DNA of 64,000 nt, taken from Acidobacteriota bacterium (GTDB lineage: Bacteria > Acidobacteriota > Terriglobia > Versatilivoradales > Versatilivoraceae). This document shows, piece by piece, positions 44,721 to 56,020 of this stretch. Numbering within the stretch: the stretch's first letter is position 1; every line of letters begins with the position of its first letter. A program made the translations under genes and the position numbers. The notes beneath the pieces are model-generated. The model was not told the origin of the DNA. It worked only from the letters and a program-made list of their open reading frames with translations, and did no database searches. The stretch spans positions 1 through 64,000 of the forward strand of contig JAJDUG010000007.1 in the NCBI GenBank assembly GCA_022826755.1, read 5' to 3'.

Positions 44721-44906
44721 ATGGCGATAGTGAAAGAGAAAATGAAGGAAGTCATTGATTCGCAGCCGGATGATGCGACCTATGAGGAAATCCTGCGTGA
44801 ACTTGCGTTCGAACGCATGGTGGAGCGTGGTCTTACGGATTCCCGAAAAGGCTGCGTGATTTCCGATAGAGAGATGGGGCACCGTATCCGCTCATGGCAG
44901 AAATAA
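44721..44906 (+). CDS. Orphan small antitoxin-like protein
   Basis: A 61-residue protein, MAIVKEKMKEVIDSQPDDAT followed by YEEILRELAFERMVERGLTD. This acidic helical type is common as the first gene of type II toxin-antitoxin pairs with a RelE/ParE toxin. GGAGGAG lies 8 nt upstream of the ATG. No toxin gene follows: the next 150 bp hold only an A-rich repeat, and the restriction gene comes after. I therefore call it an orphan antitoxin. It may protect the cell from a related toxin elsewhere, or be a remnant. Confidence 0.72.
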   Translation: MAIVKEKMKEVIDSQPDDATYEEILRELAFERMVERGLTDSRKGCVISDREMGHRIRSWQK

Positions 44907-44954
44907 TATCCACAATTCGTGCCGGGGGAGCAGGGGGCAGTCGAAATCGGCTGA

Positions 44955-45011
44955 AACAAAAGAGCACAAGAGACAACAGAAACCACAAAAAGCACAAAAG
45001 GCACAAAACGA
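44955..45011 (+). repeat. A-rich CACAAAA repeat
   Basis: Degenerate 9-11 bp units of the form CACAAAARG (for example AGCACAAAAGGCACAAAACG), similar in layout to the CTTCGTGG elements read on the other strand but with A for G. It lies between the orphan antitoxin and the restriction gene. Confidence 0.5.
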
Positions 45012-45060
45012 GTTTCTTGATTTCGAGTCTTGCTGATCGGAGGGTTCTTTTTGTGTTTTT

Positions 45061-48000
45061 ATGCCTTGCGTTGTCATTAAGCTTCAGCCGGCGAACAGGT
45101 TCCGTGTCACAGGATCCTTGACGGACTCGGGAAGGAAACCCCTCGATCTGAATCAGGATCGCCCGACTCCGATTTTTGCAAAAGGCTCAGTGGATAGTAT
45201 TTTGAGTTCGGAAGCCATCTTTTCAACCTACTTCAAAGATCTGGCCGCCGTGGCCCGTCAAGGCGACGCCCGGGAGGAGAGCTTCTATCCGGCACTTGGG
45301 AAAATGCTGGGAGGCATCGCCCAAGAAACCGGCAGGAGCCACGTACACGTCACCACGCTTCCCAGGCCGACCGAGGGGGGAAACCCGGATTTCCGCCTCT
45401 GGAACGGCAAGGACCGCATCGTCGGCTACGTTGAGGCCAAGAAACCGACGGAAGAGCGTCTGGACCTGGTCGAGGATTCCGAGCAGCTCAAACGCTACCG
45501 CTCCACGTTCCCGAATCTCATTCTCACCAACTTTCTCGAGTTCCGTTTGTACCGGAACGGCCAACGCGAGCAGACGGTCCTGGCTGCCCGGCCCCTGGTC
45601 CTCAACGTGTTGCGCCTGACGCCGACGATCGAAAAGCCGGATGAGCTTTTCGGCCTACTCGACCGCTACCTCGATTTTGCTCTTCCCCAGACGTTCACGG
45701 CCGCATCGCTCGCCGTCGATCTGGCCAAACGAACGCGACTCCTTCGCGAAGTGATTGGGGAGCAGTTTCAGCAGGAAAAGGACACACCTGGTGTGCTCTC
45801 CGGTTTCTACGAAGCCTTCCAGACCTACCTCATCGGCTCGCTGACGCGCGAAGATTTTGCCGATCTGTTCGCCCAGACCATTACCTACGGATTGTTCGCC
45901 GCCCGCACCCGGGCCGGGGACGGCTTCAACCGGCGCGCCGCCTTTGACAACATCCCCCACACCATCGGCGTCCTGCGAGACCTGTTCCGCTTCATCTCGC
46001 TGGGAGATTTGCCCGTGCCGCTGGCCTGGTGTGTGGACGACATCGCCGAAGTTCTGGCCGTGGCCGACGCTCCCGGCATTCTCGATCGCTACTATCAGGA
46101 GGGCAAGGGCAGCGACCCGGTCGTCCATTTCTACGAGACCTTCCTGGCGCAATACGATCCCGAGGAGCGCGAGCGCCGGGGAGTCTATTACACGCCCGAG
46201 CCGGTGGTGGGCTACATCGTGCGTTCCCTGCACGGCCTTCTCAAGACGGAATTCAATGAGCGCGACGGTCTGGCCTCCGACGGCGTGACCTTGCTCGACC
46301 CGGCGGCCGGCACCATGACCTTTGTGGCTCGCGCCGCCCAACAGGCCGTCGGCGAGTTCGAGGCCAAGTACGGCAGCGGCGGCAGGGAGGACTTCATCCG
46401 CCGGCATATTCTCAGGAACTTCTACGCCCTCGAACTGATGATGGCGCCTTACGCAGTCGGCCATCTCAAGATGGGTTTCTTTCTGGAAGAACTCGGGCAC
46501 CGTCTCGCCGACGACGAGCGCGTGCCCTTTTACCTTACCAATACCCTCGAAATGACGGAACTGGGACAGACCCGCATGCCCTTCTATTCCGCCTTGGCCG
46601 AGGAATCCCGCTTGGCCAGCGTGGTCAAGAAGCAGACCCCCATTCTGCTCATCTTGGGCAACCCTCCCTATTCCGGCCATTCCAGCAACTGGGGCGATTG
46701 GATACGGGAGTTGATCGAGGACTACAAGAAGGTGGACGGCAAGCCTCTGGGCGAGAAAAACCCGAAATGGCTTCAGGACGACTACGTCAAGTTTCTCCGA
46801 TTCGCCCAGTGGAAAATCGAGCAGGCCGGACGGGGTGTCGTCGGCATGATCACCAACCACAGCTACCTCGACAATCCCACCTTTCGCGGCATGCGCCGGA
46901 GCCTGATGCGCACCTTCGACGACATTTATATTCTGGACCTCCACGGCAACGCGCTCAAACGCGAGACTTGCCCGGACGGCAGCCCAGACATCAACGTCTT
47001 CGACATCCGGCAGGGCGTGGCCATCGCCTTCCTGGTGAAACGCGGCAATTCAAACAGGGATGGGCAGGATGAACAGGAATGCCGAACGGCCAGGGTCCAC
47101 CACGCCGAACGCTACGGAACCCGCGGGAGCAAGTATTCCTGGCTGGACGATCACGACCGAGGCAGCACCAAATGGCGCCAGTTGAACCCGGTCTCTCCGT
47201 TCTACCTGTTCGTGCCCCGCGACGCCGCGCTCGAAGCGCAGTTTCGAAAGTTCACTCCCATCCCTGACGTTTTCCCGGTCAACAGTGTCGGGATCGTCAC
47301 CGCCCGCGACCGATTGACGATCCACTGGTCGCAGGAGGGCGTGTGGAACACCGTCGTTCCCTTTTCGGGAATGGACCCGGAATTGGCCCGGGACGGCTGG
47401 CAACTGGGCAAGGATGCGCAAGACTGGAAAGTGACGATGGCGCAGAAGGACTTGCGGGATTCCGGCCCCACCCGCGAGAGGACGGTCCCGATTCTCTACC
47501 GGCCCTTTGACGTGCGCTACACCTACTACACCGGGAGGTCACAAGGATTTATCTGCAGGCCTCGCCCGGAGGTCATGCGCCACATGCTGGCCGGAAAGAA
47601 TCTGGCGCTGTGTGTTGGGCGCCAAGGGCATGTTGTCGGTTCTGGGCAATGGAATCTGATCTTTTGTTCACAGAGGATAGAGGACTTCAATTTGTTCTAT
47701 CGCGGTGGAAATGTAAACTTCCCTCTCTACGTCTATCCCATCTATCCCACTGCCGATCACGGAGACCTTTTTACCGACCATCGGTCTTCCGAACGAGAAC
47801 CGAATCTGAACTCCAGGCTGGTCGCCGCTCTGACAACGGCCCATGGCCGAGCTCCCTCACCCGAGGCGATCTTCCACTACATCTACGCTGTGTTGTACTC
47901 CCCGATCTATCGGAGGAAATACGCCGACTTTCTGCGGATCGAATTCCCCCGCATTCCGTTTACCACGAACGGGGAGTTGTTCGCCGAATTCGCGAGACTC

Positions 48001-48369
48001 GGCGAGCGATTGAGTGAGTTGCACTTACTCAAGTCACCGGAACTCGATCCGCCCACCTGTCGGTTCGAGGGCCAAGGCGACGCAAGAGTCGCAAAAACGA
48101 AGGCGCAGGGATTTCGCTTTGAACCCGATGAGGAACGACTACACGTCAACAGAACCCAGTATTTCGGTCCTGTTCCGCGGGAAATCTACGAGTACCGTAT
48201 CGGAGGCTACCAGGTCTGCCAGAAGTGGTTGAAGGATCGCAGGGAACGCCGCCTCGGACTGGATGACATCCGCACCTATTGCCGGATGGTGACGGCCCTC
48301 GGATGTACGCTCACCATCCAGCACCAGATCGACGCCCTATATCCCGAAGCCGAGAGCGCACCATTGTAA
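45061..48369 (+). CDS. One-chain restriction-modification enzyme (PD-(D/E)xK nuclease + N6-adenine methylase)
   Basis: A protein of up to 1102 aa; an in-frame GTG at 45190 may be the true start. The N-terminal domain has a nuclease-like core, GNPDFRLWNGKDRIVGYVEA followed by KKP, fitting PD-x(n)-ExK. A helical linker leads to the methylase: GVYYTPEPVVGYIVRSL, motif I LLDPAAGTMTFVARA, and motif IV LILGNPPYSGHSS. The last 400 residues are the probable target-recognition part (YRPFDVRYTYYTGRSQGF). This resembles type IIG or the methylase half of type ISP enzymes, but there is no helicase domain. It should methylate adenine and cut unmodified DNA; the recognition site is unknown. Small ORFs at 48378-49117 and a second-copy relic at 49131 follow. 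Confidence 0.85.
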   Translation: MPCVVIKLQPANRFRVTGSLTDSGRKPLDLNQDRPTPIFAKGSVDSILSSEAIFSTYFKDLAAVARQGDAREESFYPALGKMLGGIAQETGRSHVHVTTLPRPTEGGNPDFRLWNGKDRIVGYVEAKKPTEERLDLVEDSEQLKRYRSTFPNLILTNFLEFRLYRNGQREQTVLAARPLVLNVLRLTPTIEKPDELFGLLDRYLDFALPQTFTAASLAVDLAKRTRLLREVIGEQFQQEKDTPGVLSGFYEAFQTYLIGSLTREDFADLFAQTITYGLFAARTRAGDGFNRRAAFDNIPHTIGVLRDLFRFISLGDLPVPLAWCVDDIAEVLAVADAPGILDRYYQEGKGSDPVVHFYETFLAQYDPEERERRGVYYTPEPVVGYIVRSLHGLLKTEFNERDGLASDGVTLLDPAAGTMTFVARAAQQAVGEFEAKYGSGGREDFIRRHILRNFYALELMMAPYAVGHLKMGFFLEELGHRLADDERVPFYLTNTLEMTELGQTRMPFYSALAEESRLASVVKKQTPILLILGNPPYSGHSSNWGDWIRELIEDYKKVDGKPLGEKNPKWLQDDYVKFLRFAQWKIEQAGRGVVGMITNHSYLDNPTFRGMRRSLMRTFDDIYILDLHGNALKRETCPDGSPDINVFDIRQGVAIAFLVKRGNSNRDGQDEQECRTARVHHAERYGTRGSKYSWLDDHDRGSTKWRQLNPVSPFYLFVPRDAALEAQFRKFTPIPDVFPVNSVGIVTARDRLTIHWSQEGVWNTVVPFSGMDPELARDGWQLGKDAQDWKVTMAQKDLRDSGPTRERTVPILYRPFDVRYTYYTGRSQGFICRPRPEVMRHMLAGKNLALCVGRQGHVVGSGQWNLIFCSQRIEDFNLFYRGGNVNFPLYVYPIYPTADHGDLFTDHRSSEREPNLNSRLVAALTTAHGRAPSPEAIFHYIYAVLYSPIYRRKYADFLRIEFPRIPFTTNGELFAEFARLGERLSELHLLKSPELDPPTCRFEGQGDARVAKTKAQGFRFEPDEERLHVNRTQYFGPVPREIYEYRIGGYQVCQKWLKDRRERRLGLDDIRTYCRMVTALGCTLTIQHQIDALYPEAESAPL

Positions 48370-48377
48370 GAAGAGTC

Positions 48378-48572
48378 ATGTACCGCGATCCTATCGTTGA
48401 AGAAATACACCGGACGAGGCAGAAAATCCTGGACGAGTGCAATGGCGATCTCGACCAACTGCTGGACCGATTGAAGGCCGCAGAAGTGCAAGAACGCAGG
48501 CTTGTGGTAACTACTACATCCTTCGATCCCAAAAAAGGAAAGCCGGGTTCAAGCGGAGGCGTCAATGAGTAA
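48378..48572 (+). CDS. Small conserved protein, cassette gene 1
   Basis: A 64-residue protein (MYRDPIVEEIHRTRQKILDE and onward). It belongs to a widespread family of unnamed small proteins starting with W/Y-x-D-x-IVEE(I/V), often found beside a second small ORF like the one that follows. It starts 9 bp after the restriction gene stop with a weak AAGAG site, so it may be translated from the same mRNA. Its 3' end overlaps cassette gene 2 by 8 bp. No function is known to me; an antitoxin-like or RM-accessory role is possible. Confidence 0.75.
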   Translation: MYRDPIVEEIHRTRQKILDECNGDLDQLLDRLKAAEVQERRLVVTTTSFDPKKGKPGSSGGVNE

Positions 48573-48780
48573 GAGAAAACGGACGAAACTCGTTCACGAA
48601 GGAAGCTACGTTGCGGAAGTTGAGGTAGAGCTGTTGGACGAGCCGGAAGGATGGTCACCCTGCCTTTCTCTTGAAGAGGCGTATCGGCTTGACGAGGTAC
48701 GGCAGGCTCTCCGTCGAGGTGACCTTAAGACCGCTACGAAACATTCCCGCGTGTTCAGTCTCACGCCTGTCTCTGGGTAA
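48565..48780 (+). CDS. Small conserved protein, cassette gene 2
   Basis: A 71-residue protein beginning MSKRKRTKLVHEGSYVAEVE, with VELLDEPEGWSPCLSLEEAY and LDEVRQALRRGDLKTATKHS. It is a typical partner of the preceding family: basic N-terminus, a beta-strand pair, then a C-terminal helix pair. The ATG overlaps the end of gene 1 and the two are surely co-translated. The arrangement mimics a toxin-antitoxin pair, but neither protein shows a known toxin fold. Confidence 0.75.
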   Translation: MSKRKRTKLVHEGSYVAEVEVELLDEPEGWSPCLSLEEAYRLDEVRQALRRGDLKTATKHSRVFSLTPVSG

Positions 48781-48892
48781 GGCCACAAAGCAAATGCCGC
48801 ACTGCGTCCCCAGATCGAGACAGCCTGTCGCTCCTACGGTTATGAACCGCCAACAATCTGCACGCCCCCAGAACTCATGGAGGTATAGCATC

Positions 48893-49117
48893 ATGTGGCA
48901 TGATTCCATCGTTGAAGAAGTCCGCTGTAATCGGCAAGTGTATGCAGCAAGGTTTCATCACGACATCAAGGTGATTTGCCGTGCTGCCCGCCAGCAGCAA
49001 GAAAAGAGCGGTCACAAAGTCGTTTCGTTGTCACCACGAGCTGCCCCAACAGCCATGAAAACCCATAGTACCAACGCGGTGTCGACGAAGGAGTTACATG
49101 GCAACAGGATTCCGTGA
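48893..49117 (+). CDS. Small conserved protein, second copy of cassette gene 1 family
   Basis: A 74-residue protein, MWHDSIVEEVRCNRQVYAAR and onward, homologous to the 64-residue protein at 48378 in its first 45 residues (the KVVSL block aligns with RLVVTT). GGAGG lies 9 nt before the ATG. Its partner of the 48565 type is missing. The tail after residue 50 looks like low-quality sequence, so the gene may be decaying. It is followed immediately by the relic of a second restriction gene, suggesting that a whole RM-plus-cassette unit was once duplicated here. Confidence 0.65.
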   Translation: MWHDSIVEEVRCNRQVYAARFHHDIKVICRAARQQQEKSGHKVVSLSPRAAPTAMKTHSTNAVSTKELHGNRIP

Positions 49118-49130
49118 GCCCGAACCCTAT

Positions 49131-49257
49131 CTTTTCAACCTGCTTCAAAGATCTGGTTGCCACGGCACATTGACGAAGCGCCCAGGAGGACTACGCCAAG
49201 TCCCTGCGTTTCGCCCAATGGTTCGGCATCGGCGGGAATGAGTGGACATCGAGCAGG
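49131..49257 (+). pseudogene. Relic of a second copy of the restriction-methylase gene
   Basis: Two pieces match the gene at 45061. 49131-49192 (ATCTTTTCAACCTGCTTCAA, AGATCTGGTTGCC) corresponds to 45217-45282. 49190-49257 (GACTACGCCAAGTCCCTGCG, TTTCGCCCAATGG, later ATCGAGCAGG) corresponds to 46778-46825. About 1.5 kb between the two source segments is missing, and the frame is broken. It is a scar of a duplicated and then deleted homologue. Confidence 0.72.
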
Positions 49258-49271
49258 AAGTCAGATAATAT
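49243..49271 (+). promoter_or_regulatory. Probable phd-vapC promoter inside the relic
   Basis: TGGACA (49243-49248) and TAATAT (49266-49271) are 17 bp apart, giving a leader of about 23 nt with a GGAGG ribosome site before the ATG at 49301. The -35 box lies in sequence derived from the restriction-gene relic. Confidence 0.45.
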
Positions 49272-49300: not shown

Positions 49301-49579
49301 ATGGCACAGACACTCTCTGTTACTGAAGTCTCTCGTCACTTCGCCGAGTACATTAACCGCGTTTCCTATCGTGGCGAGAGTTTCGTGCTCGTGCGTGGAA
49401 ATAAGCCCGTGGCGGAGCTCCGCCCGCTTCCTGCGGGCAAGCGACTTGGGGAACTCCCGGCGCTATTGGCGTCGCTTCCCCATCTCTCCCCAGCCGAGGC
49501 CGACGAGTTTGCCGATGACCTCGAAGCGGCTCGGCAGGCACTCGCTCACGCGGAGGTCCGAGACCCGTGGCGGTCTTGA
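49301..49579 (+). CDS. Phd/YefM-family antitoxin
   Basis: A 92-residue antitoxin. The N-terminal DNA-binding part, MAQTLSVTEVSRHFAEYINR, and SFVLVRGNKPVAELRPLPAG are standard Phd/YefM features. The C-terminal toxin-binding part (LSPAEADEFADDLEAARQAL) is acidic and helical. GGAGG precedes the ATG. The gene overlaps vapC by 13 bp, so the module is coupled with antitoxin first. It should repress its own promoter and neutralise the PIN toxin. Confidence 0.9.
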   Translation: MAQTLSVTEVSRHFAEYINRVSYRGESFVLVRGNKPVAELRPLPAGKRLGELPALLASLPHLSPAEADEFADDLEAARQALAHAEVRDPWRS

Positions 49580-49986
49580 TTGATGCCAGTATCCTGATCG
49601 AATATGAGCGGGGGCGTCTCGATCTGGAGCGTCATCTCGCGCAACGACAGCAGGACGATTTCTATCTCTCGGTAGTCACGGCCAGCGAGCTCCTCCACGG
49701 AGTACATCGTGCAGTGCAATCAGGGGTTCGGGCGAAGCGTTCGGCCCTGGTCGAGGCGCTGCTGGGGCGCTTTCGACTGTTGCCGGTAGATCTGGCTACC
49801 GCGCGGGCGCATGCGCAAATATGGGCGGATTTGAGCGCAGCAGGCAAGTTGATCGGGCCGAATGATCTCTGGCTGGCAGCCACCTGCCTTGCCCACGGCT
49901 TGACCATAGTGACGGCCAATGTCCGCGAGTTTTCCCGAGTTCCAGGTTTGATCGTTGAGGTATGGGAAGAGCCTGCCCAGCCATAA
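49567..49986 (+). CDS. vapC: VapC-family PIN-domain toxin
   Basis: A 139-residue PIN-domain ribonuclease toxin. Acidic active-site candidates are D6 in VLIDASILIEYERG, the glutamate in VTASELLHGVHRA and the aspartate in GPNDLWLAATCLAHG; TANVREFSRVPGL is the usual last block. Start is GTG at 49567 inside the antitoxin gene. The stop codon TAA (49984-49986) lies inside the 6-bp target duplication of the IS1634-type element, so the insertion left the toxin intact to its last codon. Members of this family cleave tRNA or rRNA; the target here is unknown. Confidence 0.9.
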   Translation: MAVLIDASILIEYERGRLDLERHLAQRQQDDFYLSVVTASELLHGVHRAVQSGVRAKRSALVEALLGRFRLLPVDLATARAHAQIWADLSAAGKLIGPNDLWLAATCLAHGLTIVTANVREFSRVPGLIVEVWEEPAQP

Positions 49987-50147: not shown

Positions 50148-51893
50148 ATGTATATAGACGTTGTCCCCAACCGCAGCTCCCCGCCCGCCATCCTCCTGCG
50201 CGAGTCCTTCTGGAAAGACGGCAAGGTCCGGAAACGCACCCTCGCCAACCTCTCCAAACTCCCGCCCCACCTCATTGACGCCCTGCGCCGCCGCCTCAAA
50301 GGCGCCCCCCCTTCCGACACCCCCCTGCAGGACGCCTTCGACATCGTCCGCTCCCTGCCCCACGGCCATGTCGCCGCCGCCCTCTCCTCTCTGCGCCACT
50401 GCGGCCTGGAATCCCTCATCGCCAGCCGCCGCTCCCGCCAGCGCGATCTGGTCGTCGCCATGATCGTCGCCCGCATCCTCGATCCCCGCTCCAAACTCGC
50501 CACCGCCCGCGGCCTCTCCTCCCAAACCGCCACCGACACCCTGCCCGAGATGCTCGGCCTCGCCGATGCCGACGCCAACGAACTCTACCAGGCCATGGAC
50601 TGGCTGCTCCAGCGCCAGGCCGCCATCGAGACCCGCCTGGCCGACAAGCACCTCAAGGAGGGCGCCCTGGTCTTGTATGACCTGACTTCGACTTGGTTCG
50701 AGGGCCGCCACTGCCCCCTGGCCCGCCACGGCTACTCGCGGGACCGCAAGCGAGGCTATCTGCAACTGGTCTTCGGGCTGCTGTGCACCCGCGAAGGGTG
50801 GCCCCTGGCGATTGAAGCCTTCCAGGGCGACACCGCCGATCCCTCCACTCTGGCCTCGCAAGTCAACAAGCTGCGAAAACGCTTTGGTCTGTCGCGGGTG
50901 GCGCTGGTCGGAGATCGCGGTCTGCTGACCGAGGCCCGCATCCGCGAGGACCTCCAACCGGCGGGACTCGACTGGATCAGCGCCTTGCGCGGTCCGGCGA
51001 TCCGGGCCCTGGTCCGGCAGGATGCCCTGCAGCCCTCCCTGTTCGACCAGCGTGACCTGGCCGAGATTACCTGCCCCGCGCTCTATCCTGGAGAGCGCTT
51101 GATCGTCTGCCGCAATCCGCTGCTGGCCGAGGAGCGAGCCCGCAAGCGGCAGGAGCTTCTCGCAGCCACCGAGGCCAAACTCGTCCAGGTCCTCGAAGCC
51201 ACCCAACGGGAGCGGCGGCCCCTCAAGGGTGAGATCAAGATCCGCGAGCGGGTCCACAAGGTCGTCGACAAGTACAAGATGAAGAAGCACTTCCTTCTCG
51301 AGATCACCCCGGACCGCTTCTCCTACCGCCGCAACCCCGTCAGCGTCGCCGCCGAGGCCGCCCTCGACGGCTTCTACGTCGTTCGTACCAGTCTCGCCAA
51401 AACCCAACTCGACAGCCAGGAGACGGTGGAGGCCTACAAGGGGCTCAGCGTGGTCGAGCGCGCCTTCCGCTGCTTCAAGACCCTCGATCTGCGGGTGCGC
51501 CCCATCTATCATCGCCTCGCCCCCCGGGTCCGCGCTCATCTGTGGCTGTGTCTGCTCGCCTATTACGTCGAGCATCACATGCGTACCTGCCTGGCGCCGA
51601 TGCTGTTCGATGACCAAGAGGGGCCTGAGCGCTCCTCGGTGGTGGCGGCCGCCCAGCCGTCGGCCTCGGCCCGGAAAAAGGCCGCCTCCAAACGCTGCCC
51701 CGACGGCTTACCCGTCCACAGCTTCCAGACGTTGCTGGCTGACTTGGCCACCATTGCCCGACAGCGCATCCAGCCCAAGGACGCCGGATCGCCACCCTTT
51801 GACCTGGTGACCCGACCGACGCCCCAACAGGAGAAGGCTCTCAGCCTCTTGAACGTGCGGCTCGGGCCTGGCCGCCAACCCTCTACCCAGTAG
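50148..51893 (+). CDS. IS1634-family transposase
   Basis: A 581-residue DDE transposase of the IS1634 (IS4-like) group. Catalytic-core features include LVLYDLTSTWFEGRHC (first aspartate, about residue 180), VALVGDRGLLTEARIREDL (second aspartate, about 260) and a late EAYKGLSVVERAFRCFKTLD with the glutamate (about 440), the YREK-like region of the IS4 superfamily. The C-terminal part is helical and basic (ASARKKAASKRCPDG). The reading frame is uninterrupted and has the family's full length, so the element may still be mobile. Confidence 0.9.
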   Translation: MYIDVVPNRSSPPAILLRESFWKDGKVRKRTLANLSKLPPHLIDALRRRLKGAPPSDTPLQDAFDIVRSLPHGHVAAALSSLRHCGLESLIASRRSRQRDLVVAMIVARILDPRSKLATARGLSSQTATDTLPEMLGLADADANELYQAMDWLLQRQAAIETRLADKHLKEGALVLYDLTSTWFEGRHCPLARHGYSRDRKRGYLQLVFGLLCTREGWPLAIEAFQGDTADPSTLASQVNKLRKRFGLSRVALVGDRGLLTEARIREDLQPAGLDWISALRGPAIRALVRQDALQPSLFDQRDLAEITCPALYPGERLIVCRNPLLAEERARKRQELLAATEAKLVQVLEATQRERRPLKGEIKIRERVHKVVDKYKMKKHFLLEITPDRFSYRRNPVSVAAEAALDGFYVVRTSLAKTQLDSQETVEAYKGLSVVERAFRCFKTLDLRVRPIYHRLAPRVRAHLWLCLLAYYVEHHMRTCLAPMLFDDQEGPERSSVVAAAQPSASARKKAASKRCPDGLPVHSFQTLLADLATIARQRIQPKDAGSPPFDLVTRPTPQQEKALSLLNVRLGPGRQPSTQ

Positions 51894-52000: not shown

Positions 52001-52216
52001 ATGAAAAACGAGTTCACGGCGATAATTGAGCAGGATGGGGAATGGTATATTGCCTACTACCCTGAAATTCCCGGGGCCAATGGTCAAGGCAAGACCAGTG
52101 AGGAAGCACGCGAGAATTTGGCTGAGGCCATAGCACTTATTCTCACGGACCGCCGGGAGGAGGGGTTGCGCGGTGTGCCGCCAGAGGCCATCCGGGAAAC
52201 GGTCACCATCCCGTGA
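52001..52216 (+). CDS. hicB: HicB-family antitoxin
   Basis: A 71-residue HicB antitoxin: MKNEFTAIIEQDGEWYIAYY, then PEIPGANGQGKTSEEARENL and AEAIALILTDRREE, the standard partial RNase-H-like fold. An in-frame ATG at 51968 inside the target-duplication region is less likely to be the start. The IS insertion just upstream probably removed its native promoter or supplied a new one. The stop codon overlaps the GTG of a hicA remnant (GTGA), so the original order was hicB-hicA. Without functional HicA it is an orphan. Confidence 0.85.
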   Translation: MKNEFTAIIEQDGEWYIAYYPEIPGANGQGKTSEEARENLAEAIALILTDRREEGLRGVPPEAIRETVTIP

Positions 52217-52262
52217 AACGGGTCAGTTTGCTCCGACACCTTCGGCGGCACGGTTGTTGCCG
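52213..52262 (+). pseudogene. Truncated hicA toxin (first 15 codons)
   Basis: The frame starting at GTG 52213 reads VKRVSLLRHLRRHGC, the normal N-terminus of HicA mRNA interferases, and then runs into unrelated sequence that is the 3' flank and 3' end of the convergent amidohydrolase gene. The HicA catalytic histidine region is absent. A deletion or rearrangement near 52258-52300 removed the rest of the toxin. Confidence 0.72.
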
Positions 52263-52299
52263 CAAAATGGTGTTGACGCCCAGCTATCCCTTCCCCCCG

Positions 52300-53292
52300 T
52301 CACTTTACCCCCAACAGCCCAGCCGCGTTGTTCCAGAAGATGTCTTCCACCTGGGTGTCGCTGAGGCGTTCGGACCAGCAGGCCCATTTTAGCGAGCGCA
52401 GGTGCTCCAGGCCGGTGAGCACCGGCTTGAGCTGTTGATGTTTTTCCCGCCAGTGGGGGGAGTCTCCGTCCAGCCAGAGAAAGGAATCCTCGACTGAAAG
52501 CGAGCGGCCGCGGGCGTGGGTCACCGGCAGGTCGCCTCCATAGAGCAGCTTGTCGTGTCCGATGATGCGGATGATGGCTTGGTGGGCCATGGCTTCGCAG
52601 TTGGCGCTGGTGTCGAACCAGAGGTTGTCCAGTCCCTTGAGGTGAGGCAGTCCCTCCAGGTTGTGGGCCGGCTGGAAGCCCCGGGCCGAGTGGGCCAGGA
52701 TCAACTGCATGTCGGGATAGTTCTCGCAGTAATGCCGGATCCAGTGGATGTTGCCCGGATCGGCGGCCGCGCGGGCCTTGACCATGTGCAGGGTGATGGT
52801 CCAGCCCTCTTCGTGGGCCACCCGGATGTGCGACTCGGGCAGGTAGTCGGGGATCTCGGCTTCCCAGGTGGGGTCCGCGTTGCGGGCCAGGGTGTGGTAG
52901 CACTTCAGTCCGTGCAGCTTGAGGCGCTTGACCTCCTGGCGCACCCACTCGGGATCGTCATCGGGGGTGATGAAGAAGTGCCCTCGGCAATTCGCGTCCT
53001 TGGCGGTCTGGTCTCCCGTCCACTGGTTGGCCGCGGGGATATTCACGGGATCCCGAAAGGTGGGGATGAACAAGCCCTTGGCGACTCTGCCGGGATAGAT
53101 GTCTTCCATCAACCGCAGGTAGTTCTCGTAGTCCACCAGGGGAGGGAAACTCCCCGAAAAGACGTTGTGGTCCGGGTGCCAGACGTGGGTGTGGGCGTCG
53201 AACACCTTGTCGGGCACAAACGATGCCAGTTCGCGCTGGAAGAACTCCCGGTCTTCCTCGCGAGGGATATATTCGGGATGAACGGATGCCAT
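52300..53292 (-). CDS. Amidohydrolase (amidohydrolase_2 type), paralog 1
   Basis: A 330-residue TIM-barrel metal hydrolase of the amidohydrolase_2 (ACMSD/LigW-like) group. Metal-site blocks are KVFDAHTHVWHPD (HxH), LHGLKCYHTLA, ILAHSARGF and LLYGGDLPVTHARG (aspartate). AGGAGG lies 6 nt upstream of the ATG. Residues 150-330 are strikingly similar to the neighbouring paralog. A role as decarboxylase or lactonase is plausible; LigW/ACMSD-like enzymes act on aromatic acids, sugar lactonases on lactones. The gene is 23 bp downstream of the paralog and surely co-transcribed with it. Confidence 0.88.
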   Translation of the reverse strand: MASVHPEYIPREEDREFFQRELASFVPDKVFDAHTHVWHPDHNVFSGSFPPLVDYENYLRLMEDIYPGRVAKGLFIPTFRDPVNIPAANQWTGDQTAKDANCRGHFFITPDDDPEWVRQEVKRLKLHGLKCYHTLARNADPTWEAEIPDYLPESHIRVAHEEGWTITLHMVKARAAADPGNIHWIRHYCENYPDMQLILAHSARGFQPAHNLEGLPHLKGLDNLWFDTSANCEAMAHQAIIRIIGHDKLLYGGDLPVTHARGRSLSVEDSFLWLDGDSPHWREKHQQLKPVLTGLEHLRSLKWACWSERLSDTQVEDIFWNNAAGLLGVK

Positions 53293-53315
53293 GGGCGCCT
53301 CCTGTGGCCTTGTTC

Positions 53316-54380
53316 TTAGTCGACTCCGAAGAGTTCGGCCGCGTTGTTCCAGAAGATGTCTTCCACCTGGGCGTCGCTGAGTCGCTCCGACCAGCAGGCC
53401 CACTTGAGCGAACGCAGGTGCTCCAGTCCGATCAGCACCGGCTTGATTTGGGAGTGTTTCTCCCCCCACACCGGTGAATCCTGGTAGGCCCAGAAAAAGG
53501 TATCGGCCGCGGCGGCCGACCTTCCGCGCAAGTGGCTGACGGGGATATCGGTGCCGTACATGAGCCGCCGGTGTCCGATGATGCGCATGATGGCCTGGTG
53601 GGCCATGGCCTCGCAATTGGCGCTGGTATCGAACCAGAGATTGTCCAGCCCCTTCAGATGGGGCAGGCCCTCCAGGTTGTGGGCCGGCTGGAACCCCCGG
53701 GCCGAATGGGCCAGAATCAACTTCATGTCGGGGTAGGTGGTGCAGTAGTGGCGGATCCAGCCAATATTGCCGCGATCGGCGCAGGCCCTGGATCTCACCA
53801 TGTGCAGCATGATGGCCCAGCCTTCCTGGTGAGCCATGCGGACGTGGGATTCGGGGAGGAAGTCGGGAATCTGGGCCTCCCAGGTCGGTTTGACCCTGGA
53901 GTAGACGTGGTAGCACTTGAGTCCGGCCAGTCCCAGCCGCCGCACCTCCTGGCGCAGCCACTCGGGGTCGGCCTCCGGGCCGGTCAGGAAGAGGCCCCGG
54001 TATTGGGGATTGCAGGCCACCTGGCGGCTGGTCCAGCGGTTGGCCTCCTCGAAGTGTTCCGGCGGGCAGATGCGGTGAAAGACGTTGGCCGCGCAGGTCC
54101 GTCCGGGGTGCAGCGCCTGCTGCATGCGGGAGAACTCCCGGTAGTCTCCGTCCCTGGGCAGGGAGGCGATCCTGCGCCCGGGGTGCATGGCGCCGTGAGC
54201 CCACACGTGGGCGTGGGCGTCGAACACCCGATCGGGCAGGAAGGAAGCCAGCTCCCGGTTGAAGAATTCGCGGTCTTGGGGTTGGATGAGCGCCAAGGAT
54301 TTTCCGGAATCGGTTGGGGGCTGCCGCCCCGGACTGGTTTGGATCTGGGAGCCGAGCGAGGCAAGGGATGATATCCTCAT
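53316..54380 (-). CDS. Amidohydrolase (amidohydrolase_2 type), paralog 2
   Basis: A 354-residue paralog of the following gene: VFDAHAHVWAHG (HxH), LAGLKCYHVYS, LILAHSARGFQPAHNLEGLP, then MYGTDIPVSHLRG with the metal aspartate. Both end SLKWACWSERLSD(A/T)QVED. The first 30 residues are unlike the paralog and the true start may be internal; no strong ribosome site exists at the ATG 54380. Its 5' end is divergent from the exported LFVD-type protein gene at 54470 with only 89 bp between, which suggests joint control. The insertion in residues 70-130 (YREFSRMQQALHPGRTCAAN) differs most, so the two enzymes may act on related but distinct substrates. Confidence 0.88.
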   Translation of the reverse strand: MRISSLASLGSQIQTSPGRQPPTDSGKSLALIQPQDREFFNRELASFLPDRVFDAHAHVWAHGAMHPGRRIASLPRDGDYREFSRMQQALHPGRTCAANVFHRICPPEHFEEANRWTSRQVACNPQYRGLFLTGPEADPEWLRQEVRRLGLAGLKCYHVYSRVKPTWEAQIPDFLPESHVRMAHQEGWAIMLHMVRSRACADRGNIGWIRHYCTTYPDMKLILAHSARGFQPAHNLEGLPHLKGLDNLWFDTSANCEAMAHQAIMRIIGHRRLMYGTDIPVSHLRGRSAAAADTFFWAYQDSPVWGEKHSQIKPVLIGLEHLRSLKWACWSERLSDAQVEDIFWNNAAELFGVD

Positions 54381-54469
54381 GCCTGTTCCATTTCAACCCG
54401 TGCAGGCGCCGGCCTCGAAGCCAGGAAGGCAGGTCGGGCGCCGGATGCCGGAACAAGGGAGAATGTCGA

Positions 54470-56020
54470 ATGAGATCTAAAGGATTTGGCAGTTTGGCGG
54501 GGGGAATGGCGGCCTTGGTGCTGGCCTTCCCGGTAGCCGGTGATTCCCAGGCGCTGTCGCTGGGCTCGCAGCGGCAGCTCTTTGTGGACCGGTACCTGGT
54601 GGACCGGTTGGAGGGACTGGAACTCAGGCTCCAGCAACCCAGACCGGAGGACATCGCAATCAAGTATGACCAGCCCTGGGAGGATAAGCTGGCCTTCTAC
54701 ACCACCGTCCTCAAGGATGGCGATGTCTACCGGATGTACTACCGTTGCCGACTCGACAGGCCCCGCCTGACCTGCTATGCCGAGAGCCGGGACGGGATCC
54801 ACTGGACCAAGCCCCAGTTGGGGTTGGTGGAAGTCGACGGCTCGACGGCCAACAACGTCATCCTGCCCGTTTCGGGCCAGTTCTGCGCCTTCCTGGATAC
54901 CCGTCCCGGCGTGCCCCGGTCGGAACGCTACAAGGCCAATGCAAGAGACGTCGAGGCACCCTACAGCCTGGTGGGCTACGTTTCGGAAGACGGCGTTCGC
55001 TGGCGAAAGATCCGGGAAGCCCCCATCGTCCCCTATGCCATGGAGAACAACTTCGATTCGCAGAACGTCATGTTCTGGTCGGAAGTGGAGCAGCAGTACG
55101 TGCTCTACGCCCGCCACATGGTGGGCGGACGCCGGGCCACGGCTCGGGCCACCTCCGGTGACTTTCTCGACTGGAGTCCGCAGACACACATGAGCTACAG
55201 CGACACGGGCACCACCACGCCCTCCCAGCACCTCTACACCAACCAGACCCAACCCTATTTCCGTGCCCCCCAGATCTATATCTCGCTTCCGGGCCGCATC
55301 CATTTCGGCCGGCGCCTGCTGACGCCGGACGAGCTGAAATTCCTCGATTTGCGCCACAATCGCATCAGCGGGGGCATGCGGGACGTTTCCGACGCCGTGC
55401 TGCTGTCTACGCGGGCGGGCTCAACCCGCTACGACTTCACCTTCAAGAAGAGCTTCGTACGGCCCGGACCCGGTCAGAGCAACTGGTCCACCCGAACCAA
55501 CTACCCGGCCCTGGGGGTGGTGCAGACCGGTCCGGCGGAGATGTCTCTCTACCTGCAGCGGGACTACGGCCAGTCCACCGCCCACTTGCAACGCCTGTCG
55601 CTGCGCCTGGACGGATTCGCTTCGCTGCATGCTCCCTATCACGGGGGAGAGATGGTGACGAAGCCCATTACCTTCGAGGGGAGCCGGCTGGAGATCAACT
55701 ATTCAACCAGTGCCGCCGGCAGCATTCGGGTGGAGATCCAAACAGCGGATGGGAAACCGATTCCAGGTTTTTCACTGGCGGAGTGTCCGGAGATCATCGG
55801 AGACGAGATCTCGCGTATGGTGGCTTGGGGAGAGGTGCCGCCCCCGCTGAGCACCGGCCGGGACCCCAAAAGCACGGCCGCCGAGAGCAACGTCAGCTAC
55901 CAGACCCCGATAGTGGCCTGGGAGGGCAGCCAGGACGTAAGCCGGTTGGCGGGCAAGCCGGTGCGCATCCGTTTCGTAATGAAGGACGCGGACCTGCATT
56001 CCTTCCGCTTTCGGGATTGA
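54470..56020 (+). CDS. Exported LFVD-type protein (glycoside-hydrolase-like), copy 1
   Basis: A 516-residue protein with signal peptide MRSKGFGSLAGGMAALVLAF. After it comes SQRQLFVDRYLVDRLEGLEL, then repeats reminiscent of a five-bladed propeller (GDVYRMYYRCRLDRPRLTCY, AESRDGIHWTKPQLG). This resembles proteins annotated as GH32/GH43-type or as hypothetical in Planctomycetes and Acidobacteria. The C-terminal beta-sandwich (SLRLDGFASLHAPYHGGEMV) is shared with the protein at 56637. The ATG at 54470 follows GGGAG at 10 nt. The carbohydrate substrate and catalytic residues are unknown. Confidence 0.82.
   Translation: MRSKGFGSLAGGMAALVLAFPVAGDSQALSLGSQRQLFVDRYLVDRLEGLELRLQQPRPEDIAIKYDQPWEDKLAFYTTVLKDGDVYRMYYRCRLDRPRLTCYAESRDGIHWTKPQLGLVEVDGSTANNVILPVSGQFCAFLDTRPGVPRSERYKANARDVEAPYSLVGYVSEDGVRWRKIREAPIVPYAMENNFDSQNVMFWSEVEQQYVLYARHMVGGRRATARATSGDFLDWSPQTHMSYSDTGTTTPSQHLYTNQTQPYFRAPQIYISLPGRIHFGRRLLTPDELKFLDLRHNRISGGMRDVSDAVLLSTRAGSTRYDFTFKKSFVRPGPGQSNWSTRTNYPALGVVQTGPAEMSLYLQRDYGQSTAHLQRLSLRLDGFASLHAPYHGGEMVTKPITFEGSRLEINYSTSAAGSIRVEIQTADGKPIPGFSLAECPEIIGDEISRMVAWGEVPPPLSTGRDPKSTAAESNVSYQTPIVAWEGSQDVSRLAGKPVRIRFVMKDADLHSFRFRD

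Follow-up and report, generated by a model that had tools for sequence, protein, structure and literature searches.

Small open reading frames behind a restriction gene are very probably orphan antitoxins at a site of toxin-antitoxin turnover

What are short reading frames doing directly behind a restriction gene, and do they belong with it? In the DNA analysed here, a stretch of 64,000 nucleotides from an Acidobacteriota bacterium (the window), a restriction-modification (RM) gene (45061-48369, + strand) is followed after 8 bp by ORF1 (48378-48572, +; 64 aa), which in turn overlaps ORF2 (48565-48780, +; 71 aa) by 8 bp; farther on, ORF1b (48893-49117, +; 74 aa) stands before the relic of a second restriction gene (49115-49258, +). 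An earlier note had described the two overlapping ORFs at coordinates with which ours agree, had called ORF1b a second copy of the ORF1 type, and had read a repeated order of restriction gene and small ORF as the sign of a linked unit, perhaps an anti-restriction control, an antitoxin-like gene or an inhibitor pair. ORF1 and ORF1b are indeed related, if distantly (27% identity over 52 residues), and have the start motif MxxD(P/S)IVEE...R in common. The relic is real as well and joins a start region to a mid-gene piece: 49115-49190 aligns with RM DNA at 45203-45278 (score 72; best of 100 shuffles 38) and 49183-49258 with RM DNA near 46774-46849 (score 56; best of 100 shuffles 34). It lies after ORF1b, and the actual order is RM-ORF1-ORF2 followed by ORF1b-RM relic rather than the same order twice. 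No family in Pfam, NCBIfam or PADLOC names ORF1, ORF2 or ORF1b, and PADLOC assigns no known defence family to ORF1 and ORF2. The start of ORF1b (48893-49000) aligned with 35 of the 542 positions of a PADLOC oligonucleotide-cyclase profile (E 0.0011), which we took as a chance match. Judging from gene order and from the identity of their partners in other genomes, we suggest that the three small ORFs are very probably orphan antitoxins in a chromosomal hotspot of toxin-antitoxin turnover, beside which an unrelated restriction gene was inserted, and that ORF1 and ORF2 are most likely partners neither of the restriction enzyme nor of each other.

ORF2 was followed into other genomes by its sequence. 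A first search found matches in 12 of 101 related genomes, and at several of these loci a gene of ~106 aa ended at the ORF2 start; its product is a DUF4258 protein (RelE/ParE-like), with PF14076 over cut-off in 4/4 toxins tested. In a scan of named genomes with an ORF2 alignment, 316 encoding places were obtained and the best 80 kept, which come from Nitrospira, Binatia, Gammaproteobacteria, Latescibacteria, Desulfobacterales, Omnitrophota and others across many phyla. Using a DUF4258 profile built from five loci, we found a DUF4258 gene directly upstream on the same strand in 57 of these best 80 of 316 loci and none in 19, the other four, with <300 nt of upstream DNA, being counted separately. 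The DUF4258 stop overlaps the start of the ORF2-type gene (ATGA), so that the pair is probably translated in sequence. The ORF2 family (~71 aa) has no entry in Pfam or NCBIfam: none of 45 members scanned matched Pfam, and ORF2 itself had no meaningful match in NCBIfam or PADLOC. Its fold, predicted from 41 sequences as beta-beta-alpha-alpha-beta (pLDDT 88.8), had no Foldseek match among solved structures at E <= 0.001 and a best VIA-align Z of 3.5, with no solved structure standing out; by sequence, the best match to a solved structure had E 0.057. A search of plasmids with ORF2 gave no match at E 0.001.

DUF4258 is presented, in the portion of PMC11980606 available to us, as a toxin family of the RelE/ParE superfamily whose target is unknown. 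The likeness of our locus to modules built around such toxins (PF14076; BECR fold) is that ORF2 homologues lie right behind DUF4258 genes. Having the toxin gene first is not in itself a novelty, because DUF4258 partners in E. coli are strictly downstream according to the accessible part of PMC10790755. The DUF4258 fusion partner described in the same portion of PMC11980606 is MqsA, in the order antitoxin/toxin, whereas ORF2 modules have the order toxin/antitoxin and an unrelated partner of ~71 aa. The window differs from known DUF4258 modules in that the toxin has been deleted: a PF14076 search of the window's own genome gave no match, and ~40 nt of the 3' end are left at the locus.

The same approach connects ORF1 and ORF1b to a different kind of toxin. 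With the first 44 residues of ORF1 as the query, 7 of 297 genomes matched, its own included, and in six of the seven matching places outside its own genome the DNA directly upstream held a PIN-like gene, whole or only its end. A profile of the ORF1 family matched 27 of 396 genomes; 42 of the 46 places outside the genome of the window were examined, the other four not having been retrieved at length, and a PIN-like gene of ~157 aa lay directly upstream in 31 of the 42. At the remaining 11 the upstream DNA held ordinary genes or none, and no RM gene by eye. PF01850 was over cut-off in one of five PIN-like partners tested (L198) and weak, below cut-off, in the other four; the partner in G001, a genome of the same genus, gave a Pfam PIN match at E 0.007, weak and below cut-off. 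Scanning 33 members of the ORF1 family against Pfam returned no family apart from a weak DUF2390 match in two of them, and the best match by sequence to a solved structure had E 0.31. ORF1 found no match in plasmids at E 0.1, nor at E 0.001 in 28 genomes that carry ORF2. The arrangement resembles VapBC and other PIN-domain modules in that ORF1-family genes lie directly behind PIN-like genes, but differs in that the partner family is absent from Pfam. Toxin-first PIN pairs with unnamed partners, slr1383/ssr2317 and sll1543/ssl2999, have been reported from Synechocystis (PMC4963859, in the part available to us). Because members of both families elsewhere follow toxin genes as their partners, the term antitoxin-like in the earlier note was well chosen.

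ORF1b is 85% identical over 61 residues to a G001 gene right behind an intact PIN-like toxin. The homology stops at 49075, and the last ~13 residues of ORF1b, those after residue ~61, come from foreign DNA. Relative to G001, ORF1b has 3 silent and 9 amino-acid changes (dS 0.08, dN 0.07) with no excess of silent changes, a hint that its sequence may be under relaxed constraint, the changes being too few to say more. In the same comparison, the intact VapC and Phd genes have dN/dS of 0.11 and 0.19 and do have a silent excess.

Remnants of both kinds of toxin are visible between the small ORFs. What is left of a deleted DUF4258 gene, its 3' end, occupies 48525-48568 (+); the stop TGA (48566-48568) shares bases with the ORF2 ATG, an arrangement also present in intact pairs. 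The stub's DNA up to the ORF2 start (48525-48564) aligns with the 3' end of the DUF4258 gene in G003, also of the genus, with a score of 52 (best of 300 shuffles 33), and by blastn window 48525-48787 matches G003. The old DUF4258 frame ends GFKRRRQ-TGA, a tail also present in locus L095, and within the stub the window and L095 differ in length by 1 nt. This difference puts ORF1 in another frame, so that ORF1 misses the old stop and runs on for 8 nt into ORF2; because the stub underlies the tail of ORF1, its last residues are toxin-gene DNA and lie outside the family. The 8-bp overlap would then be an accident of a deletion joint and a 1-nt frame difference, and the idea of an inhibitor pair is not supported, ORF1 and ORF2 belonging to two different toxin-antitoxin types. 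Among the 19 orphan ORF2s elsewhere, some retain a like DUF4258 stub, most clearly in L091, L095, L115, L121, L133 and L152. Directly before ORF1b, 48784-48888 (+) retains the final 34 codons of a PIN-like toxin gene that has otherwise been deleted (residues 124-157 of the G001 toxin; tblastn, 82% identity, E 1.8e-15). No remnant of a PIN toxin was seen before ORF1.

The site can be compared within the genus, because its flanks recur in four other genomes (G001-G004). G002 has a small antitoxin gene with ParE, a gamma-glutamylcyclotransferase-like gene, and HicB-HicA with a stop in HicA; G004 is as G002, but with ParE frameshifted. G003 has DUF4258 with one stop and ORF2, then the cyclotransferase and HicBA. 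In G001 the 5' part consists of antitoxin and truncated ParE, PIN-like toxin and ORF1b, and the cyclotransferase, and the 3' part of Phd-VapC, the first ~26 codons of ORF2, and HicBA. In the window, the 5' part begins with a small antitoxin gene (44721-44906, +; 61 aa) that is 95% identical to the G002 gene preceding an intact ParE (PF05016); here ParE is missing, the homology stopping at 44916, a few codons into ParE. An interspersed repeat, the RM gene, ORF1, the DUF4258 stub and ORF2 follow. The 3' part consists of the PIN stub, ORF1b, the RM relic, and then an intact module of a Phd/YefM antitoxin (49301-49579, +; PF02604, E 1.7e-8) and a VapC PIN toxin (49567-49986, +; PF01850, E 7.8e-18), the same pair as in G001. 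Between VapC and HicB lies an IS1634-family transposase (50148-51893, +; NF033559, E 5.6e-91). The HicB-like antitoxin (52001-52216, +) matches PF21748/PF15919 weakly, below cut-off, and was found in 5/5 genus sites compared; it is followed by a truncated HicA toxin gene of which 18 codons from the start remain (52213-52266, +) and whose G001 homologue matches PF07927 (HicA) over cut-off. Directly after the truncated HicA, window 52300-54663 holds two adjacent similar genes (~78% DNA identity, from the G001 comparison), which we take to be amidohydrolase genes by their look.

Across the comparable modules of these five sites, lesions hit the toxin only in eight cases (ParE, DUF4258, PIN and HicA in the window; ParE in G001; ParE in G004; HicA in G002; DUF4258 in G003), both genes in one case (DUF4258/ORF2 in G001) and the antitoxin only in none; these counts are small and point lesions in draft MAGs may be sequence errors, whereas the four lesions in the window are structural. 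The pattern fits decay that removes the toxin first, because loss of the antitoxin first would leave a live toxin.

Based on these comparisons, we propose the following history of the locus. ORF2 would be the antitoxin of a DUF4258 toxin, and ORF1 and ORF1b the antitoxins of PIN-like toxins of ~157 aa, with the toxin gene first in the intact modules of both types. There, the antitoxin presumably neutralises the toxin encoded beside it by binding, in the manner of other type II systems. None of the three toxins survives in the window: two have left 3' stubs and that of ORF1 has left none, so that the antitoxins would have nothing to act on. The restriction gene would be a separate insertion next to the interspersed repeat. 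Orphan antitoxins are a known kind of gene: Klebsiella and E. coli commonly carry antitoxin genes that have no toxin gene coupled to them, according to the parts of PMC7192599 and PMC10790755 available to us. The likeness to these orphans is that antitoxin genes without a toxin stand at the window too; the window differs in keeping visible toxin stubs, in having several modules at one site and in belonging to an environmental lineage. What is new is the identity of both antitoxin families and the reading of the locus. Within the accessible portions of the literature on DUF4258 toxins, orphan antitoxins, antiaddiction and PIN toxins with a downstream antitoxin, we found neither antitoxin family named.

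We also considered that selection keeps the toxin-less antitoxins, with read-through from the restriction gene, because they protect against plasmids or phages with matching toxins, a reading that we hold to be rather unlikely here, although it is the one that fares best among the alternatives. At this one site four to five antitoxin genes are still open although the toxins that go with them are broken; ORF2 occurs as an orphan in other genomes too (19 of the best 80 of 316 loci); and anti-addiction roles of orphan antitoxins have been proposed (PMC10790755, in the part available to us). ORF2 also looks conserved, its differences from relatives being mainly silent (dN/dS 0.06-0.27). Toxin-first decay alone, however, yields the same pattern, an unprotected toxin being lethal; much of the silent-biased divergence of ORF2 may predate the loss of the toxin; and ORF1b shows no sign of constraint relative to G001. 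In this reading, ORF1 and ORF2 would be translated off the transcript of the restriction gene and several antitoxin classes would be retained together. From the sequences, an anti-addiction role of the orphans in the window is possible. If it were true, the genes would shield the cell from incoming mobile elements whose addiction systems are built on those toxins, and ORF2 would represent a widespread, uncatalogued family of antitoxins for DUF4258 toxins.

In our view it is improbable that the small ORFs still have toxin partners of a new, unrecognised kind or function as regulators by themselves. A minority of homologues do stand alone beside unrelated genes, and ORF1b is open over 74 codons despite its foreign tail, but the interval from ORF1 to ORF1b holds toxin stubs and no other toxin-sized gene. 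ORF2-type and ORF1-family proteins in general may also work alone, because no recognised toxin was found upstream at 19/80 and 11/42 of their loci, respectively.

The RM gene itself encodes a Type ISP C-terminal domain (PF18135, E 3.9e-85), and its best PADLOC match is REase_MTase_IIG (E 4e-241). Because no helicase family was found by Pfam, the gene looks IIG-like; it resembles Type ISP and IIG enzymes in its Type ISP C-terminal specificity domain and differs in having no Pfam helicase. At the 5' end the reading frame extends too far: alignments with homologues begin at about residue 48, there is an in-frame GTG at 45190, which is probably the true start, and the first ~43 codons are spurious, being read from the ~230-bp interspersed repeat (44963-45190) that lies exactly 5' of the gene. 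Copies of this repeat gave 9 matches in the same genome, 40 in G001 and 23 in G006, and its ends are partly inverted. In plasmids the RM gene matched 56 records at <60% identity, annotated mainly as type ISP enzymes among the 20 matches listed.

A profile built from 18 restriction genes detected an RM gene of the window's kind in 0/120 loci of the two small families. Conversely, searches at E up to 0.1 found no ORF1, ORF2, PIN or DUF4258 gene in 29 loci of RM relatives besides our own (mostly with 1.5 kb flanks, several ending at contig ends) or in 10 longer stretches around the best of them. The four nearest full-length relatives (75, 64, 55 and 54% identity) are likewise followed by genes other than ORF1 or ORF2, including a pair that we presume from its look to be AbrB and MazF. 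The association with restriction genes on which the earlier note had staked its linked unit was thus not seen across genomes for this kind of RM gene, and an anti-restriction control is equally unsupported. It is therefore very improbable that RM, ORF1 and perhaps ORF2 form a functional unit in which the small proteins regulate the restriction enzyme, inhibit it or give protection from it, even though the genes lie 8 bp apart on the same strand, RM and ORF1 are both missing from the other genus members and no promoter or terminator pattern was found between RM and ORF2, given the 0/29 and 0/120 counts and the toxin-gene stub that accounts for the overlap of ORF1 and ORF2. The shared absence leaves a joint arrival of RM and ORF1 possible. 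We conclude that the RM gene is most likely a neighbour of the small ORFs and not a partner.

Elsewhere in the window's own genome (G000:C51:32791-35634) there is another restriction gene of broadly the same kind, though distant (32%), and neither small family has a member nearby. In a Thermoanaerobaculia MAG (L104:4497-6213), an orphan ORF2 stands directly behind an hsdM/MAD2-like DNA methylase gene, which is of another RM kind and beyond the reach of the 18-gene profile. After the window, this is the second example of an orphan ORF2 that follows a DNA methylase gene, and as an exception it speaks somewhat against the reading proposed here.

Reading the three small ORFs as orphan antitoxins turns two "unknown" ORFs into testable candidate antitoxins and gives two families missing from Pfam a clear partner, DUF4258 in one case and a PIN-like toxin group in the other. 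The comparison of one site across the genus provides a small natural record of the toxin-first decay of toxin-antitoxin modules. It also carries a caution: overlapping small ORFs beside a restriction gene are not necessarily a functional operon.

For DUF4258, both the target and the antitoxins are little studied. We sampled 30 DUF4258 loci (L237-L266), four of which (L254, L255, L263 and L264) have an ORF2-type partner. Many others have a cysteine-rich downstream protein, presumably MqsA-like, and the downstream partner in L261 and L266 is one that we take to be DUF2283-like. Judging from these 30 loci, DUF4258 toxins seem to divide into classes by the kind of partner.
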